Notes under the pieces: generated by a model
What the model saw: the letters and a program-made list of their open reading frames with translations, nothing else
What the model was told of the DNA's origin: nothing
Database searches by the model: none
Translations under genes and position numbers: made by a program
Part shown: positions 7,875-53,082 of the stretch, piece after piece
Layout: every line of letters starts with the position of its first letter
Position numbering within the stretch: position 1 is the stretch's first letter
Origin: Ignavibacteria bacterium
GTDB lineage: Bacteria; Bacteroidota; Ignavibacteria; Kapaibacteriales; Kapaibacteriaceae
Reading direction: 5' to 3'
DNA: 53,082 nucleotides
Assembly (NCBI GenBank): GCA_013204605.1
Contig: JABMNI010000085.1
Location: 1-53,082, forward strand

Positions 7875-10800
7875 TTAGTCCAAGATTACCAGCCTAGACA
7901 CCGAACCCATAGTTGAATACACGATGTACGTTCCCGATGTGTAGCCTGCAACGTTAAGAGTGTTAACACTACGGCCGGTGAAAACAATTCTGCCCATTAT
8001 GTCCATTACCACCACGTCGGCAGTATGGCTGAGCATTACCATACCGGACGTGGCGGGGTTTGGATGTAAGGTTACCGTTTCAACAGAACTATCAAGGTCA
8101 TCGACACTGCTTGGAGAATTGTTATCTATCACTTTGAATATGGTAAGGGTCCCACTTACTTCGTTAGCAACTACTAGATAGGTGTTCTTGTCAGAACTTT
8201 GAGTGCTATGAATGAGTGTTAGACTTTCCGGACCGTTATCACCTGAGTACTCAGTAGCTCCTCTGGCATTATTGTAGTCTACAAACCTTGGCGTCTGTGG
8301 ATTTGAAACATCGTAGACCATTACTCCACCAACGCGCTCGAGCGCAACAAATGCGTAGGTTTTATTTGAGATTTGTCCTACAACAACACCTTCAGGCTCT
8401 GGACCTTTCGACCGACTACGGTTCTTGAGTGAGTTGCTCTCATGATCTGAGTTGAAGATTTTGGAGGTGGTTGGGTTGCTAGAAGTTATCATTTCAAAAT
8501 CATCGCCACTATCATACACGAGCGTCTTTGTGTCGGCATTCCAAATTGAGAATGATCGAGAACCTACACAGTGAAGTACGTCAATATCACCATCGCCGTC
8601 AGTGTCGCCATTCAAATTTGTAAGTCTCATTCTGCCTAGGTTATAGTTTTGTTTCAAAAACGCCGCATTAGGAAATGTCTTTGCATCTAGTACATACTTG
8701 GAATCATTCAACGTAGTGCGTTCAACCAATCCTCCATACTCTTTTTCATCTCCCTCGTTCGCTGTAACGATATAGTTGGTCGTACCAACGCTATATGTAG
8801 CTACACCATCTGGAATGAAAAAGGCACGTACCGGCCAATTGGCAATTAACACTTCACCATTATTGTCACTTGCATCGAAGCCATTTCCACTTACGCTAAA
8901 ATCCTTCGTACCTAGTGGCCATATTCCTGATATCTGAATCGAACTAAGATCAACTTCAGCAATTGCATTGTTTTCTTGGAGAGTCACCCAAGCCTTTTTC
9001 GAGTCCGATGAAACTGCTATGTACTCTGGCTCAATGTCGGCCGAGAGTGTACTGGATGCTTTTGTTTTTCGTACGCCAGACTTGATAAGCTCCGCCTCTT
9101 GTGCATTGAATTTTGTGAACAACAATGTTGTTACATTCGCCTGAGTTACGCTGCCTGGGCCGTTGCTCACATCTATGACACTAATAGAGCCTTCGGGATC
9201 GATTGAGTAGTCTGCAGTTGGCTGGCCTTCATTTGCAGTGAGTATTTTCTTTCCATCCGGTGTAAACACAATCATGTCTGGCAGTGCGCCAACGGTAACT
9301 TGGCTGACCAACTTGCCATCCACATCAAATAGGAGTACCTTGCCATTGAGGTGTTCATCTTTATTTGGACAAGCCACGGCAACCATACCATTCTTAACTG
9401 CCACGCTAGTTATACCACCGTATTGATTAATGTCAACTGAACTAATCAATTTTAATTCGGCGGGTTGACTGAAGTCTATAATGTCTAAGAAGCCAGCAAT
9501 AGCACTCGTGCTGAATAGCCTATTCGATTCCGGATCATATGCCACTATTTCGCACGAACTTGAATTTGTTCCAGAAGGGTCAAAGCTGCTTACGTGCTCC
9601 AACTCAACCGACTTCGTAGGCACTGGTGCCTTACGGTCGTTGTCGCGAATGAACACAGTAATCAACGTGTCGCCTACTACTACGCAACCTATTGGATTTC
9701 GTAGTGCCAAGACTACGTATTCTGCACTCTGCTCTTCTATTGCGTCATCAGTTATAGTTACCATAACTTTTGCGACACTCGAACCTTCTTCGATAGCAAC
9801 CGTGTTTGATACCAGTGTTACGTCACTAGGACTGGCCGTGCTAAAGCCATCGAACAACGGTACAACATCTATCGTTCCATTTGAAGAACTCAGTACATCA
9901 AGTAGTATTTCAAGAGTTCCGGAACCTTCAGATGTGACAATGAAATTCGATTTAGCTTTAATCTCGCCACCGCTTGCACGAGTAAATGTGTAAGAGTATG
10001 CGCAGGACATTTGCTGACCATCAAGCCCCTTAACATCAGCTACACTGAGTACGTATGGCTTTCCTGCATCAAATGGACTTGCGTATAAAATTGTAACCGT
10101 ATCGGAAAGTGGTCCATTTTTCGTCACCTCAATTGTTTGAATACCGTCAATCCCACGATAGTTGGAACTAGTGGTTGCGCTCAATTCATTTAGAGCCACG
10201 CTAAACGCCAATTGAATTTTTTTACTACTAACGGTTGATGCGTTGCTAACACGAGGCGGAGTTGGTATGGATATGTTAGGCCACGTTTGAGGTGGCGTTC
10301 CAGCGCCTACAACAACCCAGTTCGAAGGCTTGAAAACAGCATCCCGTATCTCGTTTATATTTCCAGAGCTTGGCCCTTGGTAGAATGCGTTAACGCTTAA
10401 GCCACTAGTATTTCCCGGAGCAGTTGAAGTGTTAATTGAATTCGTTCCATCGGTAAGTCCAGCCGGTTTCGCGGATAAACTTCCACCACATGATGTATTG
10501 CCGCTCACCCAGGCAATAGATGTTAGTGCAGTAATGTAATGTGGTTGTGCCGCACTGCCGGTGTATACAATTACTTGATCTCCATTTGAACTCAATCCAA
10601 AACCGCCCCCCGAAACCTTACCAATGTTTGTAACAAGTGCGCTAGTTTGAATTGTAATTACCGTTCCCGCAGGAACACACTGATCTAACGGCGACACCCA
10701 CAATATGCCGCCACTACACTGTGGAGTTGCGTTTGTAGTGTACTTACTATCGGTTAAAGTTATCAATGTTCCCGGAATCAAATCTTTAAACGTTAACAAC

Positions 10801-11849
10801 GCAACTTCATCATCAGCTCCAACAGCATTCATTCTGTATGCAATGAAGGCTAGGTCGCCAGTTTCTAACTGTGTTTGTACACCTATAGTTGTGAATTGCA
10901 CAACCTGACGTTCGCTTATTGCGTTGTTGCTCGTGTCCTCTACGCGGTTGGATTCTAGTGTAATGAAATACGTTTCGTTATTGCGTAGGGGGCTCATTGG
11001 TTCAACGGTAATAGTAGGTGGCACACCGTCAAATACCAATATTCGCACGGGAACCTTCGCGCCGTCAATTCTTCCCTGTCTCATTTCGATGAAAGAAGAC
11101 GCATTCGATATATCCAACGGACCGTTGCTAATAAGGCGTACTGGTTCATTAAAAGTAATCGTAAATATTTGCGAAACAGGAATGTTTGTGCTATTATTTT
11201 CGGGCGAAAAATTGACTATAGGTGAGATTGAGTCTCTAGGTGGCGCAACGCCAATTGCGTTACCATCAGCAGCAACATTGTCAAATCTATTGTTCCCAGC
11301 CAGACCCCCACTACCTTGAACGAAGGCCACCTTAAGTTTAAGCATCGGATTGTTGCTTGTGCCTGCTATACCAGACAGATCAAGAGTAACAAGTTTTGGA
11401 TCGCCGTTATTAGGTTGAATTGTAGTTAGCGAAGTATAGCTAGTTCCATCTAAGCTGTACCACCAATTTTGTGTTCCGGCTCCAGAGCTGGATCTTCTGG
11501 TAGAGAACGAAACCTTAATCGCATTGTATCCTGTTGATGGAATAGAGAATACTAGTAAACCGCCTATTGGATCGTTGAATCGTAAATGCGTCCCTGCTTC
11601 GTCCGCATTCCGCGCATTTAAATTCTCAACACTAAAGTTTTGCCCAGTCCCTCCGGCAGCATCTATCAAACTAATTCCCCCAGGTTCATGCACTATGGAC
11701 GCACCTGTTACAACTGATTTTGTCGGTGTCAGAAGTTTTTGCGTCGAAGAATTATCATTGAAATTCCAATAGTGAATCAGGCTCTGTGCATTGGTATTCG
11801 TAGTGCAGAAGATTAGACTAAGTAAGAAAATGGGTAAGGATATTCTCAT
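7875..11849 (-). CDS. Giant T9SS surface protein, choice-of-anchor I type
   Basis: A 1324-residue secreted protein. Order seen: signal peptide (residues 1-21, ending TNTNA), a LamG/nuclease-associated beta-sandwich region starting LIHYWNFNDN, an Ig-like Big_5 domain (about 206-323, SPIVNFSPENNSTNIP), a lamin-tail-like domain (about 330-526), a second Ig-like domain, a Calx-beta domain (about 640-735, VTSEGSGTLEILLD and VTITDDAIEEQSAEYV), a long beta-propeller of the choice-of-anchor I type (about 750-1236, VGALPDMIVFTPDGKKILTANEG), and a T9SS type A sorting domain from LHPNPATSG (about 1260-1324). The propeller resembles alkaline-phosphatase-like/esterase-like surface proteins, but no catalytic site is assigned. 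Its promoter region is occupied by an IS3 relic only some 30 bases upstream. Confidence 0.85.
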   Translation of the reverse strand: MRISLPIFLLSLIFCTTNTNAQSLIHYWNFNDNSSTQKLLTPTKSVVTGASIVHEPGGISLIDAAGGTGQNFSVENLNARNADEAGTHLRFNDPIGGLLVFSIPSTGYNAIKVSFSTRRSSSGAGTQNWWYSLDGTSYTSLTTIQPNNGDPKLVTLDLSGIAGTSNNPMLKLKVAFVQGSGGLAGNNRFDNVAADGNAIGVAPPRDSISPIVNFSPENNSTNIPVSQIFTITFNEPVRLISNGPLDISNASSFIEMRQGRIDGAKVPVRILVFDGVPPTITVEPMSPLRNNETYFITLESNRVEDTSNNAISERQVVQFTTIGVQTQLETGDLAFIAYRMNAVGADDEVALLTFKDLIPGTLITLTDSKYTTNATPQCSGGILWVSPLDQCVPAGTVITIQTSALVTNIGKVSGGGFGLSSNGDQVIVYTGSAAQPHYITALTSIAWVSGNTSCGGSLSAKPAGLTDGTNSINTSTAPGNTSGLSVNAFYQGPSSGNINEIRDAVFKPSNWVVVGAGTPPQTWPNISIPTPPRVSNASTVSSKKIQLAFSVALNELSATTSSNYRGIDGIQTIEVTKNGPLSDTVTILYASPFDAGKPYVLSVADVKGLDGQQMSCAYSYTFTRASGGEIKAKSNFIVTSEGSGTLEILLDVLSSSNGTIDVVPLFDGFSTASPSDVTLVSNTVAIEEGSSVAKVMVTITDDAIEEQSAEYVVLALRNPIGCVVVGDTLITVFIRDNDRKAPVPTKSVELEHVSSFDPSGTNSSSCEIVAYDPESNRLFSTSAIAGFLDIIDFSQPAELKLISSVDINQYGGITSVAVKNGMVAVACPNKDEHLNGKVLLFDVDGKLVSQVTVGALPDMIVFTPDGKKILTANEGQPTADYSIDPEGSISVIDVSNGPGSVTQANVTTLLFTKFNAQEAELIKSGVRKTKASSTLSADIEPEYIAVSSDSKKAWVTLQENNAIAEVDLSSIQISGIWPLGTKDFSVSGNGFDASDNNGEVLIANWPVRAFFIPDGVATYSVGTTNYIVTANEGDEKEYGGLVERTTLNDSKYVLDAKTFPNAAFLKQNYNLGRMRLTNLNGDTDGDGDIDVLHCVGSRSFSIWNADTKTLVYDSGDDFEMITSSNPTTSKIFNSDHESNSLKNRSRSKGPEPEGVVVGQISNKTYAFVALERVGGVMVYDVSNPQTPRFVDYNNARGATEYSGDNGPESLTLIHSTQSSDKNTYLVVANEVSGTLTIFKVIDNNSPSSVDDLDSSVETVTLHPNPATSGMVMLSHTADVVVMDIMGRIVFTGRSVNTLNVAGYTSGTYIVYSTMGSVSRLVILD

Positions 11850-11881
11850 GTTTTGCTTTATTATTGGAATGGTTTAGTAAA

Positions 11882-12030
11882 TGTGGACACTTATTTTGTT
11901 GACAACTTAGTGTAAAAAAGTTTGCTTCAAATTCTTCTGGTGAAACATTACCCAATGTTGAGTGTGGTCTTATTCGGTTGTAGTACGCGTCGATGTACTC
12001 CCAAAGTCCTAGCTTAAATTGTTTGAGCAA
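11882..12030 (-). pseudogene. IS3-family transposase OrfB relic
   Basis: The minus strand encodes GLWEYIDAYYNRIRPHSTLGNVSPEEFEANFF, the conserved C-terminus of IS3-group OrfB, without the catalytic part. Downstream comes TGTCAACAAAATAAGTGTCCACA, which looks like an IS3 right end at about 11882-11904. It differs from the intact element at 5644. The relic ends about 32 bases before the start of the 1324-residue protein gene and may have replaced or supplied its promoter. Confidence 0.75.
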
Positions 12031-12136: not shown

Positions 12137-12171
12137 TCCAATTGCTATTTACTAGTTGCTAATTGCTAATT
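12137..12171. repeat. Heptamer array AATTAGC at a stop codon
   Basis: On the minus strand AATTAGC AATTAGC AACTAGT AAATAGC AATTGGA runs through the last codons (ISN) and TAG stop of the cyclase gene. Five units, two perfect. Confidence 0.75.
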
Positions 12172-13202
12172 GTCTCCAGCCAAAACGTTTGCATTTTTCC
12201 TTTGCCCTTTATCTCCATCATTCCACGCGGCTCAATAGTAGTATTATCCACGATAATGTCGCCCAACGGGTCGCTCGTAGTGTCGCCCAACGGGTCGCTC
12301 GTAGTGTCGCCGCTTCTTAGCGCTTTTGCAAACGCCTCTGATACATGAATCCGTCCAGCTTCGCCCGTGCTCTCCATGCGGCTCGCAACGTATACGGTGT
12401 CGCCCCATACGTCGTATTGCATTCGTTGAGTGCCGATCACGCCGGCAGTTACGGGACCGCAGTGAATACCAATGCGACACTGGAGTTGAGCACTACGTGG
12501 GTCACGGTGTGGGTCACGGTGTGGGTCACGGTGTGGGACACGTTGTGGGTCACTGTGTGGGTCGCTGTTCAGGTCATTGGGTGCGACACTTATGTGCGAC
12601 ACTGCATGCATCATTTGGATTGCACATTGAGCGGCGTTAACTACACTGTCGAATGACGCACACATGTAACTGTCGCCAATGATTTTGATTTTTGTTACGC
12701 CTGACTTTTCGCAAATGGCGTCGCATTGAGAAAAAACTTTGTCTAGCAGACTAATCACCTGACTCGAATCTAGTTCCGACGATAAGACGGTGAAGCCTAC
12801 TAGGTCTAAAAATATTATTGTTGCGTTTTCGAAATGGTCATTTACCACTTCGCCCCTTGCCACCCTATCAGCTATGTGTTTAGGAAGCGTAGAGTGTAGA
12901 ACCGCCATGTGCTTTTGGTGTTCACGTTGCTGCTGCTCTAACTCTGCTTGCTTTTGTTGAATGGCAATTTTGCGTTGAGTTTCTCCGCCCCGAATTTTTT
13001 CGTTGATGGCAGTGTATGCATTGTTGTGCTCAACGTAGCCATCGAAGTCGCCGGTGGTTCGGCAGTGGTCGCGCATGAGCTTGTGAAGATTGAGTTGCAT
13101 CTCAGTGAGGTTTAGGGACTGGGCCTTTTTTAAGGCGGCCGAGCACATTTCACGCGCCTCGCTGTGTTGCCCGTCGGTAGCAAACAACCATGCATTTACC
13201 AC
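12159..13202 (-). CDS. Class III adenylate cyclase half of a split TPR-cyclase
   Basis: The product has a helical lead, a coiled coil (QRKIAIQQKQAELEQQQREHQK) and a class III cyclase domain. Metal-binding Asps are in FLDLVGFT and IIGDSYM, the adenine-selecting Lys/Asp pair in TKIKIIGD and MQYDVWGD, and Arg in VASRMES. The transition-state Asn expected before VASRM is Tyr (TAC for AAC), which should impair catalysis. An Asp/Pro/His-rich insert (PHRDPHRDPHRDP) from a 12-bp repeat and a duplicated TTSDPLGD from a 24-bp repeat enlarge the domain. The frame continues upstream through one TAA (13242-13244) into the TPR gene, so this is probably the 3' half of one protein. The GTG at 13202 is only a formal start. 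Confidence 0.8.
   Translation of the reverse strand: MVNAWLFATDGQHSEAREMCSAALKKAQSLNLTEMQLNLHKLMRDHCRTTGDFDGYVEHNNAYTAINEKIRGGETQRKIAIQQKQAELEQQQREHQKHMAVLHSTLPKHIADRVARGEVVNDHFENATIIFLDLVGFTVLSSELDSSQVISLLDKVFSQCDAICEKSGVTKIKIIGDSYMCASFDSVVNAAQCAIQMMHAVSHISVAPNDLNSDPHSDPQRVPHRDPHRDPHRDPRSAQLQCRIGIHCGPVTAGVIGTQRMQYDVWGDTVYVASRMESTGEAGRIHVSEAFAKALRSGDTTSDPLGDTTSDPLGDIIVDNTTIEPRGMMEIKGKGKMQTFWLETISN
12258..12311. repeat. 24-bp in-frame repeat in cyclase gene
   Basis: A 24-base unit starting GTCGCCCAACGGGTCGCTCG occurs twice exactly (12258-12281, 12282-12305) plus six bases of a third. It encodes two perfect copies of an eight-residue unit (SDPLGDTT in one phase). Confidence 0.92.
12497..12565. 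repeat. 12-bp in-frame repeat in cyclase gene
   Basis: About five to six copies of GGTGTGGGTCAC, degrading toward the 12565 end, encode repeating Asp/Val-Pro-His-Arg/Ser tetrapeptides inserted inside the cyclase fold. Confidence 0.9.
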
Positions 13203-13241: not shown

Positions 13242-14192
13242 TTATTGGCTGTTATCAAAACAGCTTCGCGCCATTTCTACATTATCCATCAACAAGTTTA
13301 GTTCAGCCTCACCACACAACATAGAAGGTACTGTACTAAGGTGGCCATGTTTTTCAAGTACAACCCGTGCCTCTGTGAGCAATGCAAGTGCCGTAGAATA
13401 GTCCGACATTTCTCGATACGCGTTGGCAATATTTGCTTTTACTAGTGCAGCCTGCACCGGGTGATTCAACTTCTCCATAACATCTAATGACCTATTGAAT
13501 ACTTCGAGTGCCGAAGCATTGTCACCAAGTTTTACGTGGGCAATTCCTGCATTCATCCACGCACCAGCTACTACCAGCGACATGCCGAGTTCTTCGTGCA
13601 ATTGACCAGCTTTTTGGAATTGTTCAAGCGCTGCTGCATAGTCGGCCGATTCTATGAACACCAAACCAACGTTCATTGCTATACCGGCAATGCCGTGCTT
13701 AACATCAAGCAATTGCCAACCATGTAACGATTGGTTGAAGTGCTCTAACGCGTTAGTGTGGTTACCTAGTTTGTGCTCCAGAATTCCAAGATTATTTAGT
13801 ACTGCCGATTTTCCAGCAGTATCATTTAATTTCTCATACATCCCCAGTGCCATATTATAGCTCTGCATGGCCAGGTCAAGTTGACCTTTATCAACGTGTA
13901 CCGATGCTATCTCATTATGTGTTTTTGCTAAGCCCCCTAACAGACCAATCTCTAAAAATATTGCAAGAGAAGTATCCAGTATTTGTAGCGCAAGTTGAAA
14001 TTCGGATCTCAAAACAGCCGCTGCTCCCGCCGAGTATTTTGCCCACGCATTCGCAACGGGTGTGCCGAGTTCAAGCATTTGCTGCGCACACTTGTCTACC
14101 GTTTTATCATCAAGCGCACTGCGCGCAAAATCGACCTTTTCAATAAGGTCGTCTAGTTGCTCGCGTTTACCCGTTGTAACACCGTCATCCAT
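13242..14192 (-). CDS. TPR half of a split TPR-cyclase
   Basis: A 316-residue cytoplasmic protein made of about six to seven tetratricopeptide repeats (for example SAVLNNLGILEHKLGNHTNA and AGAWMNAGIAHVKLGDNASA), a scaffold for protein contacts. It ends at TAA (13242-13244) right after Gln. In the same frame after the stop the sequence continues YTPDDAPTKIRIDVVNAWLF and on through another TPR-like stretch into the cyclase domain, with no frameshift. TPR-cyclase fusions of this layout are common in Bacteroidota, so I infer a single gene of about 675 codons broken by one nonsense codon, or read through it. The start ATG is followed by DDGVTTGKREQ. Confidence 0.85.
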   Translation of the reverse strand: MDDGVTTGKREQLDDLIEKVDFARSALDDKTVDKCAQQMLELGTPVANAWAKYSAGAAAVLRSEFQLALQILDTSLAIFLEIGLLGGLAKTHNEIASVHVDKGQLDLAMQSYNMALGMYEKLNDTAGKSAVLNNLGILEHKLGNHTNALEHFNQSLHGWQLLDVKHGIAGIAMNVGLVFIESADYAAALEQFQKAGQLHEELGMSLVVAGAWMNAGIAHVKLGDNASALEVFNRSLDVMEKLNHPVQAALVKANIANAYREMSDYSTALALLTEARVVLEKHGHLSTVPSMLCGEAELNLLMDNVEMARSCFDNSQ

Positions 14193-51150: not shown

Positions 51151-53013
51151 ATGCAAGACTTCAAACAGCAACTAATTCAATCAAGATGGGCGCATGCGGC
51201 ATTGCTGTTTGCGGCGCTTTTTGTGTTGTACTTGGTAACCTTGGTGCCGGGACTATACTTCACAGATTCTGGCGAGCTGGCCGCTGCCTGTGCTACATGG
51301 GGCGTGGCGCATCCAACTGGGTACCCGTTGTACACGTTGGTTGGTCACATTATTACGTTCCTTCCGTTTAGTACTCCCATTACCTTGCTCAATGCCTTTG
51401 CTTCATTTTGTTGCGCTGCCGGCTGTGGAATTTTTAGCGTGCTGGCGTACAATGTATTGATGCGCACCAATAACCAACTGAAGCCCAACGTTGCAAGACT
51501 TATTGCCATCACCTCGGCAGCGGTTCTTGGCGCAAGCCCGTTAGTATGGCAGCAGGCCACATCGGCCGAGGTGTACAGCTTAAACTTTCTCCTGCTCTGT
51601 GCCACCCTTCTTGCCGTTGAACGCAGCACCGCGCTTCAAAACAAATTCTATTCGCTGAGTGCACTAAGTGGACTCCTCTTCGGACTCATGCTGTGCAATC
51701 ACTTGTCGTCAGTATTTCTCGCCCCGGGCTTAATCCTGCTATGGTCCAGCGGCAGCACCCTCAGGGCCCGCTCCAAAGACGCGCTCTGGATTGTCCTGCC
51801 CGCCCTTCTCGCCCTCTCCCTATACGCCCTCCTACCCTTGCGCAGCGCAGCACTCCCACCTATCAACTGGGGCTGGGTCCACCGCGACTTTGCCTCGTTC
51901 TGGTACCACGTGCGCGGCACTCAGTTCGGCGTGTGGCTGTTCTCCGATCCGAACGTGCTGAACATTAACTCGCGCATTTTCTTTCAGGTTGCCGGCAGCG
52001 CCCTCCTCTACTTCGGACTCGCCTTTTCCGCCATCGGCGCCGTGCTTTTGTACCGCAAACAACGATCTCTGGCAACGGGCTTTGTGGTTCTGATTATTGG
52101 AAATCTTGGAATCTCACTCGGCTATGGAATTCCCGATATCGATTCTTACTTCTTGCCAACCATTACGGTTTTAACATTGCTGTTTGCCTTGGGTTTGCTG
52201 CCGGTTGCAGATAAGCTGAAGAACAACATTACGTATGGACTACTAGCAATTCCAGTTGTAGCCGTGTTGATAAATTTTATGGCGATGGACAAGCACAAAC
52301 ACACATCAGTGAACGACTACTCGGAATGGGTGTTGGAAAATGCCGAACCAAATGCGATTATTATTACGCGTCAGTGGGATTACATGTGTGCCGCCCTCTG
52401 GTACAAACAAGTGGTGGACGGCTACCGTCCCGACGTAACCATAATCGACAAAGAACTCCTTCGGCGCACCTGGTATGCCCCCTACCTCAAACAACTGTAC
52501 CCGCAAGTTTTTGCGCACATTCAGCCGCAAGTTGATGCCTACATGAGCTACCTGCGCGAGTTCGAGCTCGACTCGAAAACGTTTATGGAATCTCAGGCCA
52601 ACACGCAGGTTATTCAGGAACGGTTTATCAGAATGCTGAATGCCTTGCTAGACAGTAATGCCAACCGACCCATCTACGTTACGCCCGAAATTCTGAATGA
52701 GGAAAGGGGCTTTGCAGAGGGTTACAATGGTTATCCTCAGGGTCCGTTGTACCGCCTGACAAAAAATGTCACACAACCACCTCGCACACGCACGGCATGG
52801 TTAAACAAACTAGCCATGGGCGTTCGACTTGCACCCGACAGATTAGATTCCGGAATTCAAAGCGTAACGTTGAATGCCGTTACAAACAGCGCCATGTTTG
52901 AGTTAGAGGGTCGGGCCGACACTGCAGCATTCCGTAGATTACGCAGCGTTGCCGCATTAATCAACAACCGAAGTCAAGCAGTCAGAATGCTCAACGAAAA
53001 ACTACCGTACTGA
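51151..53013 (+). CDS. DUF2723 multi-pass membrane glycosyltransferase-like protein
   Basis: A 620-residue inner-membrane protein. The family signature is GLYFTDSGELAAACATWGVAHPTGYPLYTL (in part), with Asp-Ser-Gly-Glu and His-Pro-Thr-Gly-Tyr-Pro on the first loop, followed by about ten hydrophobic helices to residue 375 and a soluble C-terminal domain (WDYMCAALWYKQVVDGYRPDV). DUF2723 proteins resemble protein O-mannosyltransferases (GT-C fold) and are thought to use polyprenyl-phosphate sugars; an O-glycosylation role is inferred. The last codons (Leu-Pro-Tyr-stop) are inside a 16-bp repeat. Confidence 0.9.
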   Translation: MQDFKQQLIQSRWAHAALLFAALFVLYLVTLVPGLYFTDSGELAAACATWGVAHPTGYPLYTLVGHIITFLPFSTPITLLNAFASFCCAAGCGIFSVLAYNVLMRTNNQLKPNVARLIAITSAAVLGASPLVWQQATSAEVYSLNFLLLCATLLAVERSTALQNKFYSLSALSGLLFGLMLCNHLSSVFLAPGLILLWSSGSTLRARSKDALWIVLPALLALSLYALLPLRSAALPPINWGWVHRDFASFWYHVRGTQFGVWLFSDPNVLNINSRIFFQVAGSALLYFGLAFSAIGAVLLYRKQRSLATGFVVLIIGNLGISLGYGIPDIDSYFLPTITVLTLLFALGLLPVADKLKNNITYGLLAIPVVAVLINFMAMDKHKHTSVNDYSEWVLENAEPNAIIITRQWDYMCAALWYKQVVDGYRPDVTIIDKELLRRTWYAPYLKQLYPQVFAHIQPQVDAYMSYLREFELDSKTFMESQANTQVIQERFIRMLNALLDSNANRPIYVTPEILNEERGFAEGYNGYPQGPLYRLTKNVTQPPRTRTAWLNKLAMGVRLAPDRLDSGIQSVTLNAVTNSAMFELEGRADTAAFRRLRSVAALINNRSQAVRMLNEKLPY

Positions 53014-53082
53014 ATAACTACTGTACTGAATAACTACCGTACTGAATAACTACTGTACTGAATAACTACTGTACTGAATAAC
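53001..53082. repeat. 16-bp tandem repeat array starting inside a stop codon region
   Basis: Five copies of ACTACTGTACTGAATA (with C/T variation) run from 53001 to the window end. The first copy contains the last two codons and TGA stop of the DUF2723 gene. Array continues past the window. Confidence 0.95.

Follow-up and report, generated by a model that had tools for sequence, protein, structure and literature searches.

An in-frame TAA divides a TPR-linked class III nucleotide cyclase gene in an Ignavibacteria bacterium: a probable recent pseudogene

Two neighbouring open reading frames on the minus strand of the window (the whole stretch of DNA that was analysed, 53,082 nucleotides) share one frame and are parted by one stop codon. 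The first encodes a TPR half of 316 residues and the second a cyclase half of 360 residues. The question raised by this locus is whether the two frames are separate genes, the halves of one gene that has been broken, or one gene whose stop codon is passed during translation.

The divided gene and its intact relatives

The initial annotation had described a TPR half and a cyclase half in the same frame, separated by a single TAA after CAA, and the letters confirm this. The TAA at 13242-13244 (minus strand) lies directly 3' of CAA, in the context GAT AAC AGC CAA TAA TAT ACA CCG, and is the sole internal stop in the frame that runs from the ATG at 14192 to the TAG at 12159-12161. The parts of the gene are as follows:

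13245..14192, minus strand: TPR half, the 5' part of the broken gene, 316 codons from the ATG (from the frame and Pfam)
13242..13244, minus strand: in-frame TAA, located in the linker that joins the last TPR to the cyclase (from the frame and the alignment of relatives)
13200..13202, minus strand: GTG, the nearest candidate restart codon, 39 bases past the TAA
12162..13241, minus strand: 3' part of the broken gene, comprising the remaining linker and the class III cyclase domain, 360 codons

Protein-like sequence had also been reported on both sides of the stop, and Pfam analysis bore this out, with TPR_12 upstream (6.4e-26) and Guanylate_cyc downstream (1.5e-48). The second half is a member of PF00211, with residues 134-356 scoring 165.3 bits (cut-off, 21.9). 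When this 1080-nt half was base-shuffled 2000 times, every copy contained a stop; the half is therefore coding now or was so recently. That the halves can be joined without an insertion or deletion is correct, but unremarkable by itself, as the window holds six same-frame neighbour pairs with each stretch at least 150 codons long. The TPR/cyclase pair is one of the six, and the other five are taken as separate neighbouring genes. The shared frame alone is thus weak evidence, and the two halves are assigned to one gene because homologues read through the junction, not because of the frame coincidence.

When 60 related genomes were searched with the second half, 23 yielded matches with E values no higher than 1e-25, the best matches being in the family of the window genome. 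The comparison set for the family was 23 genomes, none of them from the window genome's genus. The first round of retrieval took the best second-half matches only; further places with PF00211 were fetched afterwards, and this later fetch omitted frames longer than 1,100 residues that scored about 58-76 bits, plus a few others. The 67 fetched stretches of relatives (36 + 31) contained 77 intact frames (63 from the first round and 14 later), spanning the linker-cyclase model end to end; a frame was counted as intact if it was open for more than 500 residues and its match to the model began before position 10 and extended beyond 380. Two of the 77 (L048 and L054) reach the edge of a contig or of a fetched stretch. 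The initial annotation had proposed an alignment to homologues of about 670 residues, and homologues of this build proved to be numerous in the family and order of the window genome, with open frames mostly of 600-800 residues.

All 77 intact relatives run linker and cyclase in one frame, which supports the earlier reading of one TPR-cyclase gene split by an in-frame TAA. In a 69-row alignment, which includes a few rows that are not intact (a frame from contig C37 of the window genome, one piece from L065, edge-cut frames and the TPR protein L012), the linkers of the closer relatives align across the stop column. The column itself is poorly conserved (Ala in 22 rows, Asp in 7, a gap in 12, the rest mixed). 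The 12 gapped rows are mostly divergent members with shorter linkers, and all of them continue in one frame. Continuation of intact homologues through the position of the stop is the mark of a nonsense pseudogene; members of the TPR-cyclase fusion family have one uninterrupted frame, and the window gene, with its TAA, is a broken member and not a working one. No intact fetched relative ended at the TAA position with a separate cyclase gene, the arrangement that had been named as speaking against a single gene, and a natural gene boundary at the TAA was rejected, since the relatives continue in one frame. In-frame stops inside four matches from genome G013 were read as natural ends crossed by the alignment; the frames reach the end of the cyclase model.

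The TPR-linked class III cyclases of the Kapaibacteria-like genomes G002, G016 and G019 have the order seen in the window, a TPR array followed by a linker and a C-terminal Guanylate_cyc domain. Most of them consist of one open frame and retain the catalytic Asn, whereas the window gene has the TAA and a Tyr. The four best matches in G002 are 53-62% identical to the second half over the aligned parts; the TPR half is far less similar, with 29% identity to its sole family match at E 1e-30 or better.

The cyclase domain and the surroundings of the gene

The following features lie within or beside the second half:

12681..12683, minus strand: ATC (Ile) replacing the Thr of the K-TIGD motif; Thr in 77 of 77 intact relatives
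12492..12566, minus strand: 12-nt tandem-repeat insert with DPHR units, in the cyclase domain (repeat scan)
12390..12392, minus strand: TAC (Tyr) replacing the catalytic Asn of the DTVN-ASR motif; Asn in 77 of 77 intact relatives
12258..12311, minus strand: 24-nt tandem-repeat insert with DTTSDPLG units, in the cyclase domain (repeat scan)
11865..12028, minus strand: truncated insertion-sequence end with a transposase C-terminal peptide; 98% identical to contig C18 over 164 positions

At the 16 columns otherwise invariant in the first 63 intact genes, the window gene has two private changes (Thr to Ile and Asn to Tyr). Among those 63 genes, private changes at the same columns number zero in 54, one in eight and three in one. 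At a looser threshold, the window gene keeps 44 of 46 highly conserved cyclase columns, ranking 17th of 70 and tied with four others, and several intact genes deviate more than it does. Two Asp and a Lys, which we take to be the metal-binding and substrate-binding residues of a class III cyclase, are present; the Asp pair is kept in all 77 intact relatives and the Lys in 68 of the 69 alignment rows, the remaining row having a gap. The transition-state pair of class III cyclases is given as Asn and Arg in PMC4215837; in the window gene, the Arg is retained and the Asn is replaced by Tyr. The same paper describes Ma1120, an active class III cyclase with a natural Ala at the position of the Asn. 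The Tyr is therefore not proof of inactivity, although the replacement suggests it.

In-frame tandem-repeat inserts were also seen in other cyclase domains of the family (L042, L043, L044, L050, L056, L057 and others), with units that vary by genome: DPHR and DTTSDPLG in the window, SHxV in G002 and NSNSEQ-like in G013. Of 66 sequences scanned with Tandem Repeats Finder (one broken copy, both halves of the window gene and 63 intact genes), 33 contained arrays; some of these arrays sit near the frame start or elsewhere outside the cyclase.

The insertion-sequence end, presumably IS3-like by its motifs, lies 130 bases downstream of the end of the broken gene and was counted in favour of decay. 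In contig C18, a 311-codon transposase frame carries the same peptide near its end. A 7-nt repeat, AATTGCT, extends across the end of the gene (12143-12173) and has 10 short matches elsewhere in the genome. The downstream neighbour (7875-11849) encodes a 1324-residue choice-of-anchor I family protein with a T9SS type A sorting domain. The window ends (1-127 and 52996-53082) are tandem repeats with 13-nt and 16-nt units. The window covers positions 1-53082 of contig C85, with these repeats at both ends, and the assembly may have been broken at them.

Broken copies in the same genome and in relatives

PF00211 was found in three genes only of the window's genome, on contigs C37, C85 (the window) and C79. 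In the C37 copy, a single in-frame TAA interrupts the TPR part and separates a stretch of 133 codons from one of 516; relatives align across this TAA without a gap. The C79 copy has a TAA and a TAG close to its start, plus a frameshift in the cyclase. Both copies keep the catalytic Asn and have zero private changes at the strictly invariant columns; the 516-codon C37 frame, with its invariant residues kept, could still function from an internal start. The 77 intact genes were also checked for an N-terminal piece cut off upstream by an in-frame stop, as in C37. An upstream in-frame stretch of at least 60 codons is present in 10 of them, and none of the ends inspected by eye resembles the missing TPR part.

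Thus, 3 of 3 copies in the window's genome are broken, at unrelated places, compared to 6 of the 83 copies that were counted in relatives, the other 77 being intact (hypergeometric probability 0.0008). The initial count, from best matches only, had given 5 of 68 broken and a probability of 0.001; the recount moved the broken copies from 5/68 to 6/83 and the intact genes from 63 to 77, and left the odds unaffected. The ABC_tran match rows of the same genome served as a control; an internal stop was present in 1 of the 37, a figure that covers the domain interior only and is not like for like with whole-gene breakage.

The six broken copies of the relatives are in L043, L053, L065 (three) and L144, and their lesions are scattered along the gene. 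In L043 (genome G002), an in-frame TGA lies in the last TPR, between TPR and cyclase, well over 20 alignment columns upstream of the position of the window TAA. L053 has a frameshift in the TPR part, and Thr at the column of the catalytic Asn. Of the three neighbours in L065, one is frameshifted in the linker, one has a TAA within the frame of its N-terminal part and one is frameshifted within the cyclase, as is the L144 copy; four of the six are thus frameshifts. Left out of this count were edge-cut frames, partnerless fragments in L043, L045, L047, L051, L064 and L148, what is probably a relic in L149, and cyclases matching the catalytic part only and thus of another architecture (among them L140, L141, L143, L154, L155, L157, L164, L165 and L166). 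A splitting hot spot at the TPR/cyclase junction was considered, as L043, L053 and one L065 copy are interrupted in that region, and was rejected; the lesions differ in place and kind. L065 (G004:C1:2615000-2630000) comprises three adjacent TPR-cyclase genes, each differently broken, in a one-contig genome.

These lesions bear on whether the window gene could be a working split, in which a TPR protein and a cyclase are made separately through reinitiation at the GTG at 13202 and act jointly or singly. Both halves are open and recognisable and the GTG is 39 bases beyond the TAA, yet none of the intact fetched relatives is split at the TAA position, and the lesions of the six broken ones, of which four are frameshifts, lie at other places. 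Moreover, the cyclase half lacks the invariant Asn, and the first in-frame ATG past the TAA starts only at 13148, within the linker. A working split was accordingly judged unlikely.

Of the 23 genomes of the family, 12 gave matches to PF00211 and 11 did not, and two genomes had more than 20 match rows, with a maximum of 32. Gain and loss of such genes is therefore common.

Readthrough, assembly error and decay

A programmed or leaky readthrough of the TAA would give some full-length enzyme from the gene as it stands. The in-frame stops of the family in the window's genome are all TAA or TAG (n = 4; one in the window, one in C37 and two in C79), and at least one of them, the C79 TAA, lies opposite a Gln of the window protein, as read by eye and not from a computed alignment. 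The restriction to TAA and TAG is the sole point for readthrough, and ordinary mutation produces these codons too. On the other side, two release-factor genes with open frames, which we take to be RF1 and RF2 by their motifs, are present in the genome. No stop anticodon was found among 27 ARAGORN-typed tRNAs (30 candidates), a set that is incomplete, with several amino acids lacking a typed tRNA. Neither a suppressor tRNA, within that incomplete set, nor the loss of a release factor thus pointed to readthrough or reassignment. The 106 nt starting one codon before the TAA fold no better than shuffled sequences (z +1.04), the frameshift in C79 is not curable by readthrough, and just 1 of 37 ABC_tran match rows in the same genome has an internal stop. 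Readthrough of the window TAA was judged to be highly improbable. No more probable is a family-wide form, in which low-level readthrough of TAA and TAG (for instance as Gln) would let all three stop-bearing copies still yield some full-length cyclase; if true, this would be a translational throttle on cAMP signalling.

A hairpin just 5' of the TAA (GCTGTT-TTGAT-AACAGC) was discounted, as such stems occur in 11% of the 60-nt stretches of the gene. The 72-nt stretch ending just past the TAA has a slightly more stable fold than its shuffled versions (z -1.72), 11 of 200 of which did equally well. An exact scan of viral contigs for the stop context gave no match.

The TAA could also be an assembly error, in a genome that is in 86 contigs and is known from the assembly alone. 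This is very unlikely given the several independent lesions at three loci together with the Asn to Tyr replacement, in a genome in which all but one of the 37 ABC_tran match rows lack stops.

We therefore consider the window gene to be, very probably, a recently inactivated pseudogene of a TPR-linked class III nucleotide cyclase. Decay is favoured because the relatives are contiguous across the stop, two invariant residues have been lost and 3 of 3 copies in the genome are broken. Counted against it were the lack of a frameshift and the 44 of 46 conserved columns kept, the gene appearing healthy apart from the TAA and the two residues; and also the unchanged invariant columns of C37 and C79, and the prospect that the C37 frame could work from an internal start. 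The decay is probably recent, because conservation at the looser threshold is not extreme and both C37 and C79 keep the Asn. Overall, the pattern looks like the ordinary decay of a paralogue, not unusual decoding.

In the order of events that we infer, a single-base change would have created the TAA, translation would stop after the TPR half and little useful cyclase half would be made, in a lineage that may be shedding a gene family with many members in some relatives and none detected in others. The transmembrane adenylyl cyclases of Trichomonas vaginalis, as described in PMC2914791, are likewise an expanded family with copies carrying in-frame stops and frameshifts; they differ in belonging to a eukaryote and in their transmembrane architecture, and serve as a precedent for the pattern only. 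A literature search yielded no paper on an adenylate cyclase of Kapabacteria, and none that was evidently about the present TPR-cyclase family.

For annotation, both open reading frames should be treated as one disrupted gene. The locus represents a clean case of decay in an expanded signalling family, as none of the three class III cyclases detected in the 2.69 Mb assembly is unbroken and full-length. Although the C37 frame may still work from an internal start, the bacterium of the window would thus be predicted to produce little or no cAMP from full-length TPR-cyclases.
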